From: Pseudokineococcus lusitanus
GTDB lineage: Bacteria; Actinomycetota; Actinomycetes; Actinomycetales; Quadrisphaeraceae
Direction: 5' to 3'
NCBI RefSeq assembly: GCF_003751265.1
Contig: NZ_RJKN01000005.1
Coordinates: 62,001 to 126,000, forward strand
Length of the DNA stretch: 64,000 nt
Part shown: piece by piece, positions 1 through 59,571 of the stretch
How the letters are laid out: the number at the start of each line of letters is the position of its first letter
How positions within the stretch are numbered: the first letter of the stretch is position 1
Translations under genes and position numbers: made by a program
The notes under the pieces: generated by a model
What the model was told of the DNA's origin: nothing
Seen by the model: the letters and a program-made list of their open reading frames with translations, nothing else
Database searches by the model: none

Positions 1-657
1 CAGCCGCTGCCGTCTGCGGCTCCGGATTCAGAACCGGTCGACGAGGAGGCGGTGGGTCGCATTCAAGAGTTGCTTGATGGCCAGATGCGCTCTGTTGGCA
101 AGTTCAATACAGAGGTGTCGACCATGCTTGCCGATCTCGCGCAGTCTGAGGCTAAGAGGTACGAAAGGGCGCTCGTTACCCTAGGGAGATTACTCGGTGC
201 CGACGCTTTCAAACCGGATGGTCAAGGTAGGGCCGATGCTGTTTGGCTGTGGACGCCGCTATGGCTGACCGTAGAGGCTAAGAGCGAGCAGAGCAGTGAG
301 GGACTCTTGAGCATGGGTTACGTGCGTCAAGCAAATACTCAGTTGGCATCCGTCGCCGGCGACCGCGGGGAGGATGCGCCGCCTGATGGCAGCATCAGCG
401 TAATCGTCAGCCCCAGAGGAGTCGTGGACCCCGATGGTGTCGCTATCGCGTCTCCGCATGTTCACCTAGCTTCTCCGAGGCTATTGTTGGACGTGGCTCA
501 CGATGTCGTCAGGGCTTGGAGAGAACTCCGTGGCCTGACGCCAGGTGTGTCCGGCGATGCTCGCCGTCAAGCAACGGCTTCGCTCCTGTGGCAGCACCGT
601 GTGCTGCCTACGCAGGTCAAGGAGCGCCTTGGCCGCGATCCCATCCGTGGCGTCTGA
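1..657 (+). CDS. C-terminal part of a large protein with a PD-(D/E)XK nuclease-like motif (5'-truncated by window)
   Basis: The frame is open from base 1, so this is the end of a gene that starts upstream; a GTG at 52 is possible but has no good ribosome site. About 218 residues are visible. Near the middle an Asp (GRADAVW) is followed about 12 residues later by VEAKSE, which fits the D...ExK core of PD-(D/E)XK nucleases. A conserved-looking VRQANTQL and an ISVIVSPR strand follow. From memory, this layout resembles the C-terminal tail of actinobacterial defence-type helicase or nuclease proteins, but the ATPase part, if any, is outside the window. The function is inferred, and an ordinary housekeeping nuclease cannot be excluded. 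It sits in the low-GC island. Confidence 0.6.
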   Translation, partial: QPLPSAAPDSEPVDEEAVGRIQELLDGQMRSVGKFNTEVSTMLADLAQSEAKRYERALVTLGRLLGADAFKPDGQGRADAVWLWTPLWLTVEAKSEQSSEGLLSMGYVRQANTQLASVAGDRGEDAPPDGSISVIVSPRGVVDPDGVAIASPHVHLASPRLLLDVAHDVVRAWRELRGLTPGVSGDARRQATASLLWQHRVLPTQVKERLGRDPIRGV

Positions 658-2088: not shown

Positions 2089-2265
2089 GAGTCTTCCTGG
2101 TCGTGGTGCGAGAGCTTCAGCAGTCCAAGTGCGGGAGCTCCTCGCCCACGTCAGGTCGCGTTACCAGCTCACGCACGGCCAGGCGAGCGCGGCGTCGCGA
2201 GGTTTGGCCAGGCACGCCGCATACGGCATCTGGTTCACATCCACGCGCCGGATGCTTCCGTCGGG

Positions 2266-2271
2266 TACAGT
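2266..2271 (+). promoter_or_regulatory. Putative -10 box (TACAGT) of a leaderless promoter
   Basis: TACAGT fits the actinobacterial TAnnnT -10 consensus. It lies 8 nt before the ATG at 2280, so transcription would start at or within two bases of the start codon. There is no Shine-Dalgarno sequence in front of that ATG, which agrees with a leaderless mRNA. No clear -35 box is visible. Confidence 0.45.
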
Positions 2272-2279
2272 TAGCTCCC

Positions 2280-3086
2280 ATGAGCGAGCAGAAGCAGGCC
2301 CTGGAGGCCCTGGAGGACGCGCGGGTGCTGGACGGTCTGCGCTGGGCGGCTCGTTCCAGCGCCTCTCGGGTCCTCTCTGACTACGACTCCGACACAGGTC
2401 ACGACCAGGGGTGGCTGGGCTACTCGCACCACAAGCTGCTTAAAGATCGTATGGATCGAGTCTTCTCCTGCGGTAAGTATGCAGTGCCCTCATCTGGGGA
2501 AGACGCTGCAGGGCTTGATGTGCTGGGTGCCGGTCTCGACCAAGAGGAGCTCCTCAACATGCCCCTCATCCCCGTGGGCGTCGTCCACCGGGATGAGCTA
2601 AACGGGTCACCTGGTTGGCGGGCGGGTGAGTGGCGGTGGTTGCTTGCCTCTTTCCGGTACGGTGAGGGCGAGCGGATCCACTGGGTACAGAAGAGTCCGA
2701 CGAAGCAGCGCGTTGCAGCGCAGCCGCGGCCCGATCAGCTCATGATCGAAGACGAACAGTTGGGTATCTCTAGCCTGGGCGATGACGCGCCGGTGAGCAT
2801 TCCCAGCCTTATGCACGATGCGACAACGACTCTTGTGCTCGGGCACTCACTTGACCCCTTCTCTGGCGGGCTGCAGCTCCCCTTCGGACGACCGCGCCTG
2901 AATCTCGGGGGAGGCGATTGCTGGTACTGGGTCACCGATCTCGCGGGAACTCCTGGCGGCGGCGGCGGTGGTCGCCTAGTCGACCCGGTGAGGCCGGGTG
3001 GTCAGGATGGGCAGGTGGTCGCGGACGCCCCCGTTCGACTTCGTCGCCGCGGTGTCACCGTCGACGGCACGAGCAACGCCACGTGA
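2280..3086 (+). CDS. Unknown 268-aa protein, first gene of an XRE-ImmA pair
   Basis: I do not recognise a named family. The ATG at 2280 was chosen because the -10-like TACAGT sits just upstream and because the protein sense disappears before it. The N-terminus is helical and charged (about residues 1-45). The middle contains LLNMPLIPVGVVHRDELNGSPGWRAGEWRWLLASF, which reads like a compact folded domain. Then comes a KSPTKQRVAAQPRPDQL segment, and a low-complexity Gly/Arg-rich C-terminus (from about residue 220). Its stop overlaps the GTG of the next gene (GTGA at 3083-3086), so the two proteins are made together and probably act together. A role as partner, substrate or inhibitor of the ImmA-type peptidase is inferred only from this coupling. 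Confidence 0.7.
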   Translation: MSEQKQALEALEDARVLDGLRWAARSSASRVLSDYDSDTGHDQGWLGYSHHKLLKDRMDRVFSCGKYAVPSSGEDAAGLDVLGAGLDQEELLNMPLIPVGVVHRDELNGSPGWRAGEWRWLLASFRYGEGERIHWVQKSPTKQRVAAQPRPDQLMIEDEQLGISSLGDDAPVSIPSLMHDATTTLVLGHSLDPFSGGLQLPFGRPRLNLGGGDCWYWVTDLAGTPGGGGGGRLVDPVRPGGQDGQVVADAPVRLRRRGVTVDGTSNAT

Positions 3087-4252
3087 GCCGCCGAGTTGGT
3101 TCCGATGATCGGGCTGGCGATGCGGCTCGTATGTTCGATGGTGAGCGACTGACGCTCGCTCGTCATCTTGCGGGCTTGCGTAAGAATGGCCTGGCGGACG
3201 CCATCGGAAAGACGCCCACCGCTGTCGCAGCTTACGAAAATGGTAGTAAGCGACCTGCGGCGGCGACAGTGGCTCAACTTTGCCTGGCCCTAGGCGTGGA
3301 TCCCGAGTTCTTTGTGGCGGGTCTCCCCCGTTACGCGTCAACGCAGGGGGCTCCACACTTCCGCTCGTTGCGATCGACGACTCAGGTGGTACGAGACCAA
3401 GCGTACTCGCTGGGGCAGATTGCGGTCAGCGTGGCTGCCGCCGTAGAGCGACACGTCGAGTTTCCGGAGGTTGACGTGCCGCATGCAGTTGTTGATCACG
3501 ACGCTGCGGACGAGACCATTGGCGACGCGGCCCGCGCGCTCCGCCAGAGTTGGGGTATGGACGAGGGGGCTCTGCCTCACATCGTGCGCCTGGTCGAGAA
3601 CCATGGCGTACTAGTTGTCTTTGGCGCGGCACAGACGTCTTCGGTTGACGCTTATTCGTTCAACAATGCTCACCGTCCTGTGATGGTACTGAACCCTCTG
3701 AAGGATGACTACTATAGGCAACGATTCGATGTTGCCCATGAGTTGGGTCACCTCGTGATGCACTCGGACTCAGAGCCGGGCGGGCGTGTTGTGGAAGAGC
3801 AAGCGCATAGATTTGCTGCGGAATTGTTGATGCCGGAGGACCAGATCCGTCCAATGCTGCCTTCTAGGGCGGACTGGCGGGCGCTTGGTCATCTTAAAGA
3901 AGCCTGGGGAGTCAGTATGCAGGCCTTGCTTTATCGAGCGCGGCAGTTGGGCGTGATGACGGACACCACGTACAGGAATGCAATGACGACGGTCTCGGCT
4001 CGGGGGTGGCGTAGGCGCGAGCCCGGGCCAACGCCAATGCTGGAGCAGCCGTCCCTATTGCCGAAAGCGATAGAACTGTTGATCGGAGAGGGGCTGCACT
4101 CGCGCGCTATTGCGGCGGAAGCCCGGGCCCCCATAGGACTTTTTCAATTGGTCACCTCGCGTACCCCCACAAGTGTCACTCCTGACCTGCCGGTCGACGA
4201 CGTGAGGACCGCGCCGAGTTCAGGCTCGCTGCTCGCCTTGGTGAATGACTGA
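3083..4252 (+). CDS. XRE-family HTH fused to ImmA/IrrE metallo-endopeptidase
   Basis: The GTG at 3083 was chosen because it overlaps the upstream stop (GTGA); an ATG at 3131 would also keep both domains. Residues about 20-75 form a helix-turn-helix of XRE type (RLTLARHLAGLRKNGLADAIG, then AYENGSKRPA). A DUF955/ImmA domain follows with the zinc motif HELGH at residues 219-223 and a later E-rich helix (EEQAHRFAAELLMPE). In this family, for example ImmA of ICEBs1 and IrrE/DdrO, the peptidase cleaves a repressor to switch on an element or a stress response. The 389-aa length includes a C-terminal extension of about 100 residues that I do not recognise. Location in an integrative island suits control of excision, defence or a toxin-antitoxin-like role. 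Confidence 0.85.
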   Translation: MSRRVGSDDRAGDAARMFDGERLTLARHLAGLRKNGLADAIGKTPTAVAAYENGSKRPAAATVAQLCLALGVDPEFFVAGLPRYASTQGAPHFRSLRSTTQVVRDQAYSLGQIAVSVAAAVERHVEFPEVDVPHAVVDHDAADETIGDAARALRQSWGMDEGALPHIVRLVENHGVLVVFGAAQTSSVDAYSFNNAHRPVMVLNPLKDDYYRQRFDVAHELGHLVMHSDSEPGGRVVEEQAHRFAAELLMPEDQIRPMLPSRADWRALGHLKEAWGVSMQALLYRARQLGVMTDTTYRNAMTTVSARGWRRREPGPTPMLEQPSLLPKAIELLIGEGLHSRAIAAEARAPIGLFQLVTSRTPTSVTPDLPVDDVRTAPSSGSLLALVND

Positions 4253-4809: not shown

Positions 4810-5826
4810 TCACTCGGCGGCAGTCCGAGAGATGAGGGTGAAGGTGGCGCTCACGCCCACCCCGTGCGCGTAGACGTCGCCCCACACCTTGTGGTCGCCC
4901 ATCTCGACAGACGCGATAACACCGAGCATGTCGGCGTGAGTACCGACCATCTGGCGGAAGACGTCTGCCGCTTCGTCAGCAAGCTGAGTGGCATTCCACT
5001 GGCCGGTGCCGATGCCCAGACCAGCGGTCACGCCGATGCGGACACGGCGGATGCCATCTGCGCCGACGACCGTACCGAGGTGCTGGCCGCTATTGGTCTT
5101 GACGTAAACTTCAGCGCTACCGGCGTAGCTGGTCGTCAGGCGATCCCGCAGGCGCATCGGCAGGTACCCGCTGAAGGCCTCCACGGCCCATGCGGGCACC
5201 TCCGCGTCGATCACCGGGACCGGCTCGCTGGCGCGTACGACGAGGACGGAGAAGCGGTCAACGTGGTGGTCTCCGGTCCAGTCCGTTCCGCCGTGAGGGA
5301 CCTCGATGCGCCAGCCGTTAACCGCTAGTGCCTTTTCGAGAGCCACGTCGGTCAGCGGCACGTGCTGAGCGGTCCGCGTGTATGCCACCTCGACGCTTCC
5401 AGTGATCGTGCCGTTAAGCGTGTCCCGCTTGACGTCCCGTGTCTGCGAGACGGCGAGGTGAGGAAGAGCGGTCACGGTCGGCAGCTCGTTAACAACCACG
5501 GCCTCGATTCCAACGGCAGGAGCGATGTAGGGCGCCACAAGATTGGCAAGGGTGGTGTCGTCGGAGAGAAGCCCTCGCTCAGCGATGGCAAGTGCGGACT
5601 CTCCCGCAGGCACCAGGTAGCCGTAGCGCTCAACGTCAGCGCGAGCCCTAAGCAGATAGTCAACGGTCACCGTGTCGTCACCACGTCGGAGCCGGGCAAC
5701 GGCGTCAGCCTCAGCCGCCTTAGCGGCGTCAGCACTGCTGCGCCACCCCATGAGGCGTCCCTTTGCCGTGCCGTAAGTCGTCTTGCTCTCCGTTACGCGG
5801 TCTGCATAAGTCTTGGTCTTAGCCAT
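4810..5826 (-). CDS. Unknown 338-aa protein, last gene of the island operon
   Basis: I do not recognise the family. The ATG at 5826 is preferred; an in-frame TTG at 5841, overlapping the upstream stop, is the alternative. The N-terminal 60 residues are rich in Lys/Arg and Ala and look helical. The remainder alternates beta-type stretches (LVAPYIAPAVGIEAVVV, GTITGSVEVAYTRTAQHVPLTDVALEKAL, RFSVLVVRAS) and ends with SVSATFTLISRT-like strands. There are no membrane segments, signal peptide or cysteine motifs. It is co-transcribed with the replication-like HTH genes. A phage-type structural or a replication accessory role is possible, but nothing in the sequence decides it. Confidence 0.7.
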   Translation of the reverse strand: MAKTKTYADRVTESKTTYGTAKGRLMGWRSSADAAKAAEADAVARLRRGDDTVTVDYLLRARADVERYGYLVPAGESALAIAERGLLSDDTTLANLVAPYIAPAVGIEAVVVNELPTVTALPHLAVSQTRDVKRDTLNGTITGSVEVAYTRTAQHVPLTDVALEKALAVNGWRIEVPHGGTDWTGDHHVDRFSVLVVRASEPVPVIDAEVPAWAVEAFSGYLPMRLRDRLTTSYAGSAEVYVKTNSGQHLGTVVGADGIRRVRIGVTAGLGIGTGQWNATQLADEAADVFRQMVGTHADMLGVIASVEMGDHKVWGDVYAHGVGVSATFTLISRTAAE

Positions 5827-5833
5827 TAGTCGA

Positions 5834-6616
5834 TTACTCAATCTCTAGGTTGGTTGGTCTGCCGGGCGCCTGCGGCGCCCGGGTCGACCTGTAGCGGTCA
5901 GCGGCGTAGCCGGAGCCCCGCCGCGTCAGCGGCGGTTGTGTTGGCTCAATGGCAGCCTTGAGAGCCTTTCTGCCGTCGTCGTCTCGACCCCAGACGTAGC
6001 CGTCTGGTGCCGGGTCTCCGTCCAACACGTGCGTGCTGTTACTGGTCAGCCAGGAGGGGAAGCCGGGTGCGCCAGGTGACTCCAGCCGTAGGGCATCGGC
6101 CCCCGGAGGGGGTGGAGGCGGGAAGTCGGTCACCTCGTTTACCGCCGCTGGTCTGGTAACTGGATTGTTCAATGGTCTGTTTGCTGCAACATCCCGGGCC
6201 ACCCTGGTGCGACTTGCCGGGCCACCCCCTGCAACATCCCGGGCCACCCTGGGTAGGGGTGGTGTCACTTCCCGGGCCACCTCGTCGAGGGGTAGTTCAA
6301 CTTCCCGGGCCACCTGCTCAGGGGGTGGTGGAACGTCCCGGGCCACCCCCGGGACGGCCAGCTGGTAGGTGGCGCCCCGCCTGCCAGGTACGGCAGGTGC
6401 GGTCACCACTAGCCAGCCCGTCTCCACGAGGTCGCGCATGGCCTCTTGGACCGTGGAGCGCGCCTGCCCGGTTCTCTCGACTACCTGCCGCTGAGAGGGA
6501 TAGATGTTCCCGCCGTCTCTGCCGCTGTAAGTGGCGAGGGCTAGCCCGGTGAACTTCGCCGCTTTCCGTAGGTCACTGTCGAGTAGACGCTTCTCCCATT
6601 CGAAGCGGGCACTCAT
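5834..6616 (-). CDS. HTH (replication-initiator-like) protein with an 11-residue repeat linker
   Basis: The start at 6616 is fixed by an ATGA overlap with the upstream gene. Residues about 1-85 form a winged-helix/HTH_36-type domain (WEKRLLDSDL, then YPSQRQVVERTGQARSTVQEAMRDLVETGWL), typical of small replication initiators and phage or element HTH proteins. A linker follows with five copies of an 11-15 residue unit beginning VARDV or VAREV and rich in Pro, then a Pro-run and a C-terminal tail. At DNA level the same units contain a recurring cccgggccac motif. The 260-aa length and operon position fit a plasmid- or AICE-type replication protein, but no catalytic Rep motif is visible, so that role is inference. 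Confidence 0.7.
   Translation of the reverse strand: MSARFEWEKRLLDSDLRKAAKFTGLALATYSGRDGGNIYPSQRQVVERTGQARSTVQEAMRDLVETGWLVVTAPAVPGRRGATYQLAVPGVARDVPPPPEQVAREVELPLDEVAREVTPPLPRVARDVAGGGPASRTRVARDVAANRPLNNPVTRPAAVNEVTDFPPPPPPGADALRLESPGAPGFPSWLTSNSTHVLDGDPAPDGYVWGRDDDGRKALKAAIEPTQPPLTRRGSGYAADRYRSTRAPQAPGRPTNLEIE
6193..6346. repeat. Five direct repeats of cccgggccac, last four 33 bp apart
   Basis: Copies start at 6193, 6238, 6271, 6304 and 6337, giving spacings of 45, 33, 33 and 33 bp. Each contains the palindrome CCCGGG followed by CCAC. In frame they encode VAR(D/E)V of the linker of the overlapping HTH protein. The regular spacing of about three helical turns is also what initiator-binding iterons look like. 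Confidence 0.75.
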
Positions 6617-6948
6617 GGATGACCTGCTGACGTTGGCACGAGGAAGGTCCATTGCTGGCAGTTGCCGCGCCAGTTACGGGAGGGGCCGACATGAGGACCC
6701 AGCCAGCCGCCGTCCCTCGGTGCCGCCGTGCTGGCGGCTACGTCGGGGGCGCCGTAGCCGGTCTCCTCAACGAGCCGTGGAGTCGAGAGAATGGCGCCGG
6801 TCTCCCGATTATCGGCGTGAGCCGCCAGCGTCAGTCCGACTTGCTTGGTCATCTCGTCCAGATCGCTGCCGACGAGAGCGAGCATCCACCGGCGAAGCGC
6901 AGAGCGTTGCCAACGGATGACGCCCTTGCGGGGGCCCGCCCACGTCAC
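6613..6948 (-). CDS. Small HTH protein (111 aa), replication-module type
   Basis: GTG at 6948 overlaps the preceding stop (GTGA), and its own stop overlaps the next ATG (ATGA), so it is translationally coupled on both sides. The core WMLALVGSDLDEMTKQVGLTLAAHADNRETGAILSTPRLVEETGY is an HTH_36-like domain. In related proteins the recognition helix follows directly after the ETGYG motif. Here that segment reads APDVAASTAAPRDGG, which is less helix-like and may be a local frame disturbance or a diverged recognition helix. Probably DNA-binding; the exact partner site is unknown. Confidence 0.7.
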   Translation of the reverse strand: MTWAGPRKGVIRWQRSALRRWMLALVGSDLDEMTKQVGLTLAAHADNRETGAILSTPRLVEETGYGAPDVAASTAAPRDGGWLGPHVGPSRNWRGNCQQWTFLVPTSAGHP

Positions 6949-7292
6949 TCGGAACCCCGCGCGACCTGGCGTCCAGTGAGGCTGAGCCGGGTGGTTGCCC
7001 CTGGCGCGATCAGCCCGTCGTCCATCAGCTCGGAGAGCACCTGCCGTGCGCGGGTCTCGTCAATGCCACAGTGCTGAGTCATCGCACCCGGACGCAGGAT
7101 CGTCTCTGGCGTCTTGGCGTAGACGTAGGCGAGGAGCCGGCGGTAGTCGCCCTCAGGGTCTTCTGCCGCCTTGATCTTCGACGCTCGGGTGTGCTCTATC
7201 TGGGCGCACCTGAGGACGTGCCAACCGGCCGGCGGCTGGTCAGTTGTCACGATCGGTGCGTGCGTCAGCACGGTCTCTACTGCTATAGCCAT
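6945..7292 (-). CDS. Small winged-helix protein (115 aa)
   Basis: ATG at 7292 has a good ribosome site (GAGAGGAAG about 8 nt upstream), while the longer frame has none. The C-terminal half (ILRPGAMTQHCGIDETRARQVLSELMDDGLIAPG) reads as a winged helix-turn-helix, with a helical N-terminal part containing YRRLLAYVYAKTPET. It is the third gene of the operon, 20 nt after the zinc-ribbon gene, and overlaps the next HTH gene. Three consecutive small HTH proteins suggest a replication or copy-control module for the element. No catalytic motif is visible. Confidence 0.7.
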   Translation of the reverse strand: MAIAVETVLTHAPIVTTDQPPAGWHVLRCAQIEHTRASKIKAAEDPEGDYRRLLAYVYAKTPETILRPGAMTQHCGIDETRARQVLSELMDDGLIAPGATTRLSLTGRQVARGSE

Positions 7293-7311
7293 CTTGCTTC
7301 TTCCTCTCTGG

Positions 7312-7644
7312 TCAACGGGGTGCGGCACTTTGAGTGGTACCCCGTCGCTGCACGGGTATGACGGGGCGCGGGGCGTGAGGGGGTACAGCGCAGCGGCCTG
7401 TACCGCGTGCTCGTAGGTCGGCTGGGGGCTTACGCCCAGCCGTCTTGCGCCAGCCGTTTGCGGCGGGCACGGGAAGCGTCGCCACGACGGGACGACAGGA
7501 GCCGCACGGCGGGTGTACTTGAGCGAAGCCGTGGGCGTGGCCGTAGGCAGCCTGGGCCGCGCAGCCGTGGCAGATACCGGCGCGGAGGTAACGCGCCTTG
7601 CGTCGCTCCCAGGAGGCAGCCGCCGTGGGCGTCTCGGTGCTCAC
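7312..7644 (-). CDS. Zinc-ribbon-like small protein (110 aa)
   Basis: GTG at 7644 overlaps the stop of the excisionase-like gene (GTGA). Two CxxC pairs, ICHGC and PCGSC, about 20 residues apart, make a likely zinc ribbon in the first half. The second half is Arg/Pro-rich and probably disordered and nucleic-acid binding. Proteins of this look are common beside xis/int genes of actinobacterial elements, but I know of no assigned function. Confidence 0.7.
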   Translation of the reverse strand: MSTETPTAAASWERRKARYLRAGICHGCAAQAAYGHAHGFAQVHPPCGSCRPVVATLPVPAANGWRKTAGRKPPADLRARGTGRCAVPPHAPRPVIPVQRRGTTQSAAPR

Positions 7645-8135: not shown

Positions 8136-8603
8136 GTGTGGGCCCAAGGCGTGGAGGGCGGTGAGGAGAACTGCAAGATCGAGGCTCGATGGTGGGTGTA
8201 TGAGGGTGAGGTAGTGAGTGACTCGCCTCGTCAACTTGTTATTACGGTTTCCGAGGATGCGTCTGCCGGTGTGCGGGGGCGAGGCGTCACGGCTGGGCTC
8301 ATGCGGCAGGTGGAGCGTGTTCTTTCCCAGTGGGTGCGCGACACGCACTGGGGTGACGAGACAGGCGTTGCCACGACGATGGAGGAGAGGGCGCGCGCGC
8401 TCGCGCAGCGACATCTGCAGGGCATGCCGTCAAGCCCGCGAGTTGATGGGACAACCTATTACTCAAAGTTGCTAGGTGCAGTCGTTGCGCTGGATGATCT
8501 TGGCTACGAGAACTCGAACCGCCTAATCGCCGAGCTCTTGGGGAAGAGCCGAGAGACCATTAAGACGCAATTGCGAGTCGCCCGGCGCGGAGGGGCCAGC
8601 TGA
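8136..8603 (+). CDS. HTH-ended hypothetical protein preceding the integrase (155 aa)
   Basis: The GTG at 8136 was chosen because a strong AAGGAGG site ends six bases before it; upstream in-frame ATGs at 8073 and 8094 lack one. The protein has a beta-rich N-terminal half (KIEARWWVYEGEVVSD, RQLVITVSEDA). Its helical C-terminal half (YYSKLLGAVVALDDLGYENSNRLIAELLGKSRETIKTQLRVARR) ends in a plausible helix-turn-helix. Its TGA overlaps the ATG of the integrase (8601-8605), so it is coupled to it and is probably a regulator or accessory factor of integration. I do not know a named family. Confidence 0.7.
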   Translation: MWAQGVEGGEENCKIEARWWVYEGEVVSDSPRQLVITVSEDASAGVRGRGVTAGLMRQVERVLSQWVRDTHWGDETGVATTMEERARALAQRHLQGMPSSPRVDGTTYYSKLLGAVVALDDLGYENSNRLIAELLGKSRETIKTQLRVARRGGAS

Positions 8604-9821
8604 TGGCTAGGCCGCGGATGCAGCCAGGAGAGTGGGGCACCATCACGCTCACCCCACTCACAAAACGGCCGGACGGGCGTTACGACACCGCCCCGGCAGG
8701 CACGAAGCGACCTGACCGTGTGCGGGCGCGAGCCAGAGTTCGAGGTCTTGATGGTCGCACCCGCACGGTCGAGCGCATCGCGGGGAGTCGCGCGGCGGCG
8801 GAGCGCGCGCTGCGAGCGGCGCTTGCTGAGTACGTCACTCCGTCTGCGGCGCATGCCACTTTGACTGGCGCGACGTTGGTGAAGGATGCGGCTGAGGTCT
8901 GGTGGGCAGGTGTTGAGTCGGCCGGGAACCATCGGCCCTCCACCCTGCGCGTGTACAAGGGCGTCCTCGATAATCACATCATCGGCAAGGCCGGCAGTGG
9001 GGCTATCGCCAACTTGACGCTGCGCGAAGTGCGCGTGTCGAACCTCGATGGCTTGTTGAGGGCCATCAGTCGAGACAACGGGCCGGCGGTGGCTCGGACG
9101 ACACGCACGGTCATAGGGCTCATCTTCACGCTTGCCGTCCGGCACGACGCAGTGGCTCACAATCCAGTGCGCTCACTCGGCTCCATCGCAGCGGCTGGTG
9201 ACCGACGCCCCAGCCTTCGGGACAAGCAGCGGGCCTTCACGGTGGAGGAGCGAGCTGCCGTCATGGCGCTCTTGCCGACGATCAGGAGCGCGCCCGTTCT
9301 CGCGACCTCGGGGACCTCGTGGCCTTCCTGGCGGGTACGGGGGCGCGCATCGGGGAAGCCTGCGCGTTGCGGTGGTCCTACCTCGACCTCGACGCCGGGA
9401 CGGCGCAGCTTGGGCCGACTGTCGTGCGCGGGTTGAACGGGGCAGGGCTCTTCGTGCAGGAGCAGGGGAAAACGCAGACCGCCCCGCGGACGGTCGCGCT
9501 GCCGCCCTGGCTGGTGGCTCGACTGCTGGCTCGGCAGGTGGCCGCGATGCCCAACGAGTGGGACGCGGTCTTCCTCTCCCCACTGGGTCGGCTGCGCGAG
9601 GTGAGTAACACGACCAAGGACGTGCGGGACCTGCTGGACGACGCGGGCATGGAGTGGGCAACGAGCCACACCTTCCGCAAGTCCGTGGCGACACTGTTGG
9701 ACGCGGCTGGGGTCTCCGGTCGTGAGGTCGCGAACCAGCTGGGTCATCGTCGCCCGTCCATGACGCAGACCACTACATGAGCCGACGCACCACGACGGAG
9801 CAGGCTGCGCTTCTGCTCTAG
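8603..9821 (+). pseudogene. int: Tyrosine integrase, inactivated by two 1-nt deletions
   Basis: The N-terminal arm-binding and SAM-like core-binding domains (residues about 1-210, with STLRVYKGVLDNHII and ARTTRTVIGLIFTLAVRHDAVAHNPV) are in one frame. A 1-nt loss near 9277 shifts the catalytic domain into the next frame. There TGARIGEACALRW (catalytic Arg), HTFRKS (HxxR) and LGHRRPSMTQ are present. A second 1-nt loss near 9769 ends the frame at 9780, just before the catalytic Tyr. Repairing both gives HYMSRRTTTEQAALLL and a stop at 9821 (about 406 aa), a normal family length. The neighbouring tRNA-Lys is the evident target. Either the enzyme is dead or both indels are assembly errors. Confidence 0.9.
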
Positions 9822-9918
9822 CTGAGGCAAGAAGGTGGGTAAGTGGTGGATGAGGCGCGCCAGCCTCTCGGGCACGCGGTCGCTATCGCATGTTGGTGCA
9901 GGTCAGGCAGCCAAGCGG
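9822..9918. other. Likely attachment-site region between int and tRNA-Lys
   Basis: This short gap between the repaired integrase stop and the tRNA 3' end holds no gene. In elements of this type the core att site is the 3' part of the tRNA (here 9919 to about 9960), with integrase arm sites in this gap. No second copy of the tRNA 3' end was found to the left, so the core cannot be delimited. Confidence 0.45.
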
Positions 9919-9991
9919 TGGGCCCCGTGGGGCTCGAACCCACAACCCGCGGATTAAAAGTCCGCTGCTCTACCGGTTGAGCTAGAGGCCC
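9919..9991 (-). tRNA. tRNA-Lys (anticodon TTT)
   Basis: The 73-nt cloverleaf folds fully. The acceptor stem GGGCCTC pairs with GGGGCCC (one G-T pair), the D-arm carries AGCTC...GAGC, and the anticodon stem GCGGA/TCCGC closes loop CTTTTAA with anticodon TTT. The T-arm is GTGGG/CCCAC around TTCGAGC, and the discriminator base is A. The CCA end is not encoded. It forms the right border of the island. Confidence 0.97.
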
Positions 9992-58761: not shown

Positions 58762-59571
58762 GTGACCGCGACCGCCGTCCCGCCGGCCGTCCGGGTCCCG
58801 CCGCGGCTGCTGCCCGCGCTCGTGGGCACCCTCGTCTGCGCCGCCCTGGCCGCCTCCGCCCTGCTGCTGCCGGTCCTGCTCCTGCCCGTCCTCGTGCTCG
58901 CGGCGCTCCTGCTGGCGGTCGGGTGGCCGCGCCTGCTGGCGCTGCCGTCGCCGCGCGGGACGAGCGCGGTCGTCGCCGTCGCCGGCCTCGGGGCCGTCGG
59001 CGCGGTCGGGGTGGCCGGCCCCCCGGGCACCGGGGTCGGGGCCGCGCCCGCCGCGCTGCCGCTGGGGCCCGAGGGCGCCGCCGAGGCCGTGCTCGCCGCG
59101 CTCGGGCTGTCGGTCGTGCTCGCCTTCCTCCACCAGATCCTCCGCACGGACGGGCGGCCCCGCCTCGCCGAGTCGGTGGCCGGCACCGTGACGGGGGCCG
59201 CGGCCGCCGCGCTGCTCGCCGGCTGGGTCGGGGCCGCCGCCCCGGGCGGCGAGCACGTCGCCGTCGGGGCCGCCGGCGTCGCGGCCGCGCTCCTCGTCAC
59301 CGCCCTGCCCTGGCCGCAGCGCCTCACGGGCGTGCTCGGCGTCGCGGCGGCCGCGGCGGCCGCCGCGGTCGTCGCCGGCCTGCTGCCCGGCGTCGTGGCG
59401 GTGCCCGCGGCCGTCGTCGGCGCCGTCCTCGGCCTCGTCGTCGGCGGGGTGGACCGGCTGCTCACCGCGCTGCCGCGCGCGACGTCCCGCCGCCTGTCGG
59501 GCGTCGTCGGGCTCGTCGCCGTCGCGCTCGCCGCGGTGCCCGTCCAGCTGTGGGCGGTGGTGGCCCCGTGA
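58762..59571 (+). CDS. Polytopic membrane protein, first gene of a signalling cluster (269 aa)
   Basis: GTG at 58762. Seven or eight hydrophobic Ala/Leu/Val-rich stretches in pairs (LLPALVGTLVCAALAASALLLPVLLL, TSAVVAVAGLGAVGAVGVAG, LSVVLAFLHQILRTDGRPRLAESVAGTVTGAAAAALLAG). The FLHQxLRxDGRPRL segment is a conserved-looking loop. I do not know a named family. Its stop overlaps the start of the LMW phosphatase gene (GTGA), and the next three genes follow without gaps, so it belongs to that signalling set. It could be a sensor or scaffold. Confidence 0.75.
   Translation: MTATAVPPAVRVPPRLLPALVGTLVCAALAASALLLPVLLLPVLVLAALLLAVGWPRLLALPSPRGTSAVVAVAGLGAVGAVGVAGPPGTGVGAAPAALPLGPEGAAEAVLAALGLSVVLAFLHQILRTDGRPRLAESVAGTVTGAAAAALLAGWVGAAAPGGEHVAVGAAGVAAALLVTALPWPQRLTGVLGVAAAAAAAAVVAGLLPGVVAVPAAVVGAVLGLVVGGVDRLLTALPRATSRRLSGVVGLVAVALAAVPVQLWAVVAP

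Follow-up and report, generated by a model that had tools for sequence, protein, structure and literature searches.

Organization of the gene pair and its host element

The window, by which we mean the whole 64 000-nucleotide stretch of Pseudokineococcus lusitanus DNA that was analysed, carries two consecutive plus-strand genes: gene A (2280–3086, ATG to TGA; 268 residues) and gene B (3083–4252, GTG to TGA; 389 residues). The end of gene A and the start of gene B share the four nucleotides GTGA, so that the first-pass annotation, which had described a 268-residue gene overlapping a gene for a helix–turn–helix (HTH) protein with an HELGH peptidase motif, is confirmed on this point. We assign gene A as a divergent RmrT, the putative toxin of the pair, and gene B as an RmrA, its predicted antitoxin and probable autorepressor. 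A chance pair of open reading frames is excluded, because relatives in the same order are found in Kineococcus (with 63% identity for gene A and 71% for gene B) and in more distant actinomycetes. A frameshift near the C-terminus of gene A, considered in view of its odd glycine-rich tail, was likewise rejected, as the Kineococcus copy, at 63% identity, stays in this frame to its end and is equally long.

The −10 promoter box TACAGT (2266–2271, plus strand) ends 8 nt before the ATG of gene A and is placed for a leaderless operon transcript. A TANNNT box ending 6–8 nt before the start codon is present in all 12 of the 12 loci of the gene A family (hereafter the A family), compared with a background of ∼0.8% of positions; the earlier remark on a leaderless-type promoter was therefore right and describes a conserved feature. 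The promoter is shared by gene A and gene B. Ahead of the −10 box, the window (2220–2279) and the upstream regions of the relatives have GGTTCA-like and TACTG-like blocks in common. These blocks are possibly the RmrA operator; information and dyad scores over the upstream regions of the A-family loci were too weak to claim one.

The pair lies in a region of reduced GC content (61–70% over the first 10 kb of the window compared with ∼78% beyond). A tRNA-Lys(ttt) gene (9917–9991, minus strand) marks the insertion site of an element, and the 37 bp of its 3′ end (9917–9953) recur as a second exact copy at position 59086 of the contig, 2914 bp to the left of the window start. Exact repeats 12 831 bp apart define an integrated element of 12 831 bp, which bears out the proposal of a tRNA-anchored low-GC island, and gene A and gene B are cargo of this element. 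Adjoining the tRNA gene is a tyrosine integrase (8603–9790, plus strand; Phage_integrase E = 2.6e-17 for its second piece) that is readable only across three frames, with the terminal tyrosine region in the third. The gene is thus either broken or carries indel errors, and the element may no longer be mobile or the assembly may contain indels. The left neighbour of gene A, annotated at first as a PD-(D/E)XK-like protein at 52–657, does exist, but it is only the C-terminal part (1–657, plus strand) of a DEAD-helicase protein of ∼877 residues that begins ∼2 kb to the left of the window (L119:1125–3758; Pfam DEAD E = 1.4e-9) and matches PADLOC PDC-S28 with E = 2.6e-102 for the full protein. It adds another candidate defence gene to the tRNA-Lys element.

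Gene B and the RmrA antitoxins

In the PADLOC profile search, gene B matches the RmrA model PDLC03955 over residues 7–370 with E = 7e-119, and 13 further PADLOC RmrA models also match. Its product combines an XRE-type HTH (residues 20–75; 3140–3307, plus strand; Pfam HTH_31 E = 1.6e-9, HTH_3 E = 6.8e-9) with an ImmA/IrrE (Peptidase_M78) domain (residues 172–286; 3596–3940, plus strand; PF06114 E = 3e-24) in one protein, with the Pfam matches for both domains above cut-off. The HELGH zinc-binding motif (residues 219–223; 3737–3751, plus strand) is intact, and His219, Glu220, His223 and Glu238 are invariant across 12 homologues. The nearest solved structures are 9vzy_A and CapP. The match to CBASS CapP is restricted to the peptidase domain (E = 5e-19), compared with the full-length match to RmrA, and no separate CapH-type neighbour is present, the adjoining gene A having no match to any CBASS model in PADLOC. 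Against NCBIfam NF052239, the equivalog model for Spr1629, gene B scores 136.8 bits, far under the cut-off of 335. These comparisons identify gene B as a full-length RmrA, the XRE–ImmA/IrrE antitoxin of RosmerTA.

RmrA antitoxins are paired with diverse RmrT toxins (PMC10440598), and more than half of the COG2856/Xre cases are fused and adjoin toxins (PMC2701414). The earlier premise that an ImmA-type peptidase normally works with a separate repressor encoded next door overlooks these fused XRE–ImmA proteins, which are common (PMC2701414) and, under the name RmrA, form the antitoxin of RosmerTA (PMC10440598).

Gene A and its relatives

Taken by itself, gene A has no match in Pfam, NCBIfam or PHROGs, nor to the PADLOC RmrT models. 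Its 11 relatives likewise belong to no Pfam, NCBIfam or PHROGs family, on which ground a housekeeping reading of the gene was set aside. Searching the PDB with the sequence of gene A returned chance matches only, and a structure model built from two sequences (pLDDT 30) is meaningless. The relatives come from Kineococcus, from Rhodococcus, Nocardia and Arthrobacter plasmid records and from seven further actinomycete genomes; members are absent from the phage and viral collections searched. The family is patchy, being present in eight of 394 genomes of the class and on plasmids, as expected for a mobile toxin–antitoxin module.

Linkage to RmrA is strict. An RmrA gene lies directly downstream, in the same order, in 12 of the 12 intact A-family loci (the window included), most of which also have 4-nt gene overlaps, and the sole locus lacking RmrA (L011) is a broken one, cut short and containing a stop. 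Homologues of gene A thus almost always have an XRE–ImmA neighbour, contrary to the pattern that the first-pass annotation had named as refuting its proposal, and the suggestion of a conserved functional pair of the defence or element-maintenance kind is upheld.

The RmrT model PDLC03941 (PADLOC) is matched by six of the 12 A-family members. The match of the Kineococcus protein is the best (E = 7e-7); further E values are 1e-5, 1e-5 and 5e-5, and the match of L005 (E = 1.4e-5) covers nearly the whole model. Bona fide PDLC03941 toxins in other actinomycetes are followed by RmrA genes of that same subtype (E = 1e-89, 3e-28 and 2e-34), and when the A-family profile is aligned with a profile of these bona fide RmrTs, the match has E = 3.5e-10 and a probability of 96.7 over 220 columns. 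Comparison of the family profile with 40 RmrTs from viral contigs was collinear and not significant (probability 2.6, E = 0.018). Since the window protein has no direct match while its subfamily does, membership of RmrT rests on the subfamily and not on the single protein. Gene A looked unrecognized because this subfamily falls just short of what the library models can detect, and the first-pass description of a partner of unrecognized fold no longer holds. Among the roles offered for it (substrate, sensor or toxin), that of toxin is the most likely on these sequence relationships.

The pair as a probable RosmerTA module

We interpret the pair as a RosmerTA toxin–antitoxin module, consisting of a divergent RmrT and an RmrA and carried as cargo on the tRNA-Lys-integrated element, with a probability of about 0.86. 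This reading has a directly observed basis in the synteny, in the homologues of each of the two genes, in their common leaderless promoter and in the boundaries of the element. With gene B matching RmrA and the gene A subfamily matching RmrT, the two genes cannot be called an undescribed system: the kind is known, and what is new is a toxin subfamily missed by defence-finding libraries, located on actinomycete chromosomes and plasmids. As in RosmerTA modules defined by PDLC03941 and PDLC03955, the operon has two genes with the toxin first, and the antitoxin is an XRE HTH fused to an ImmA/IrrE peptidase; the difference lies in the toxin, whose subfamily has diverged. By analogy with RosmerTA work elsewhere, RmrA would neutralize the gene A toxin and its HTH would repress the operon at the promoter just upstream. 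Loss or inactivation of RmrA, for example when a phage infects the cell or the element is lost, would free the toxin and stop growth.

Two characterized RosmerTA pairs offer different precedents for the toxic step. RipAB (Spr1630/Spr1629) of Streptococcus pneumoniae (PMC12795458) has the same antitoxin architecture and a toxin gene adjoining the antitoxin gene, although gene B scores well below the Spr1629 equivalog threshold; the target of its toxin RipA is the β sliding clamp DnaN, as identified genetically by suppressors that are concentrated in the DnaN pocket and eliminate binding (PMC12795458). The RosmerTA of Gordonia phage Kita (RmrT-D5; PMC10440598) similarly places an ImmA-type antitoxin beside an unrecognized toxin in an actinobacterial host, but its RmrT has predicted transmembrane segments, which gene A does not, and is reported to depolarize membranes (PMC10440598). 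RosmerTA toxins therefore need not have one common target. A Kita-like membrane toxin is not favoured for gene A, which contains no hydrophobic stretch (maximum 19-residue hydropathy 0.83).

A clamp-binding-like motif and the fold of RmrT toxins

The open reading frames upstream of RmrA, taken from the genomes sampled for the class and from 80 viral contigs (L037–L116), are very diverse; 40 of the viral ones can be aligned as a single family (A7). This alignment contains a Q-x-x-L-F column set (29, 27 and 24 of the 40 members), and the forms observed in viral RmrTs near 0.6 of the protein length include QLSLF, QLELF, QLQLF, QLRLF, QLSLPF, QSMSLF and QFDMF. Bacterial clamp-binding motifs follow the pattern QL[SD]LF, revised to Q-aliphatic-x-[LM]-(x)-[FL] (PMC9690074, PMC13254535). 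Among 66 toxin-position open reading frames next to RmrA, selected with a 50% identity filter, the published consensus (PMC13254535) occurs in 14, compared with 4.3 ± 2.1 in shuffled sequences (maximum 11 in 300 shuffles), a contrast in which the shuffles overstate independence because the 66 are still partly homologous. The controls show no excess: the consensus is found in seven of 36 RmrA proteins (5.0 expected) and in ten of 178 open reading frames from the same contigs (14.9 expected). Position is also restricted, with 13 of the 16 consensus matches at 0.52–0.66 of the length of the toxin-position frames. Looser patterns match 36 of the 66 (6.6 expected), but they were written after the sequences had been viewed, and the figure for the published consensus is accordingly the one to trust.

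The motif is less regular within the A family. Seven members have QISLF, QLSLL, QPSLF, QPTLF, QDTLF, QLTLDL or QLALDL, of which QISLF (L010), QLSLL (L009), QLTLDL (L012) and QLALDL (L013) agree with the consensus; three have LF without the glutamine, and gene A and its Kineococcus relative have QL-x-[IF] and lack the hydrophobic residue at the end. The gene A version, QLMIED (residues 153–158; 2736–2753, plus strand), aligns with the motifs of the relatives, is degenerate and fails to match the published clamp consensus.

The enrichment in toxin-position frames fits RipA, the single RosmerTA toxin genetically traced to DnaN, and suggests that many toxins of the RmrT kind may use a short motif to bind the DNA-replication clamp; the word 'motif' is absent from the RipA report (PMC12795458), and no other paper in the literature searched links Rosmer and the sliding clamp. 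The most likely reading of the toxic step is thus that it would interfere with DNA replication through DnaN, RmrTs as a group having this clamp-binding-like motif in the loop that follows their fourth helix, where it would fit the RipA target. Given the mixed A-family forms, we infer clamp binding for the RmrT kind and more weakly for gene A: we place it just short of even odds for the former and regard it as rather doubtful for the latter, with its degenerate motif. More broadly, and tentatively, at somewhat under an even chance, RosmerTA toxins in general, those of this actinobacterial subfamily included, might be sliding-clamp poisons in which a protein of restriction-endonuclease-like fold would present a QLSLF-type motif on a mid-protein loop to the DnaN pocket, with RmrA controlling access. 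If so, the phage trigger would act at the replication fork.

The same protein features permit another account, that of a RosmerTA toxin acting in a different way (for instance, as a protein of restriction-endonuclease fold that binds DNA or is nuclease-like), in which Q-x-x-L-F would be a docking or cleavage site for RmrA. The AlphaFold model of one viral RmrT (L069) is confident (pLDDT 89.9) and has the order αβββαβ of restriction endonucleases; it resembles such folds of several families, with NaeI (Z = 6.4), EcoRV (5.6), SfiI (5.1), Hjc resolvase (5.0) and the SPARDA effector (4.4) among the matching structures, but Z scores below 8 may reflect only a common arrangement. A conserved (D/E)-x-K active site was seen neither in the RmrT alignment nor, in evident form, in the L069 model, which speaks against this account. 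In this model QLSLF (residues 125–129) lies at a helix end and runs into a low-confidence loop, a flexible setting that would be accessible to a protease. The five- and six-residue forms of the motif (QLSLF, QLSLPF and QSMSLF) are nevertheless known for clamp binding and would be needless for cleavage. We consider this account credible, at a little less than an even chance.

RosmerTA modules are among the widespread phage-defence toxin–antitoxin kinds, and the toxin target is known for very few of them. As annotation, one more RosmerTA is of modest value; the clamp-like motif that the toxins share deserves the experimental attention, since its occurrence at one position in many dissimilar toxins would turn scattered results, such as the action of RipA on DnaN, into a testable rule.

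Role of the module on the element

The location on a mobile element, and on plasmids in relatives, would also suit a module that serves purely for stability (addiction) of the element and has no anti-phage role. Protection against phages, of narrow range, has been found for other RosmerTA pairs (PMC10440598, PMC12322248), and the element also carries the candidate defence helicase PDC-S28; a purely addictive role is on these grounds unlikely, and addiction and anti-phage roles can coexist. An ImmA/ImmR-like switch would control excision of the element without poisoning the cell, with gene B as antirepressor peptidase and gene A as the substrate or sensor of that peptidase. Such a switch draws on the integrase of the element and on ICEBs1, where the M78 peptidase ImmA, similarly associated with an XRE HTH on a mobile element, cleaves the repressor ImmR (PMC10440598, PMC2701414), but is very improbable, as the repressor is a separate protein there while gene B combines HTH and peptidase in one product and gene A matches no Pfam HTH, homologous pairs also occur on plasmids, the Kineococcus pair lies between permease-like and kinase-like genes with no integrase in the stretch read, and the best match of gene B is to RmrA over its whole length.

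Elsewhere on the element, the minus strand at 4810–7328 encodes a 338-residue protein of no known family together with small genes that weakly match families of phage replication-initiation and MarR-like winged-helix proteins. The genes in this interval are possibly the replication or control genes of the element.
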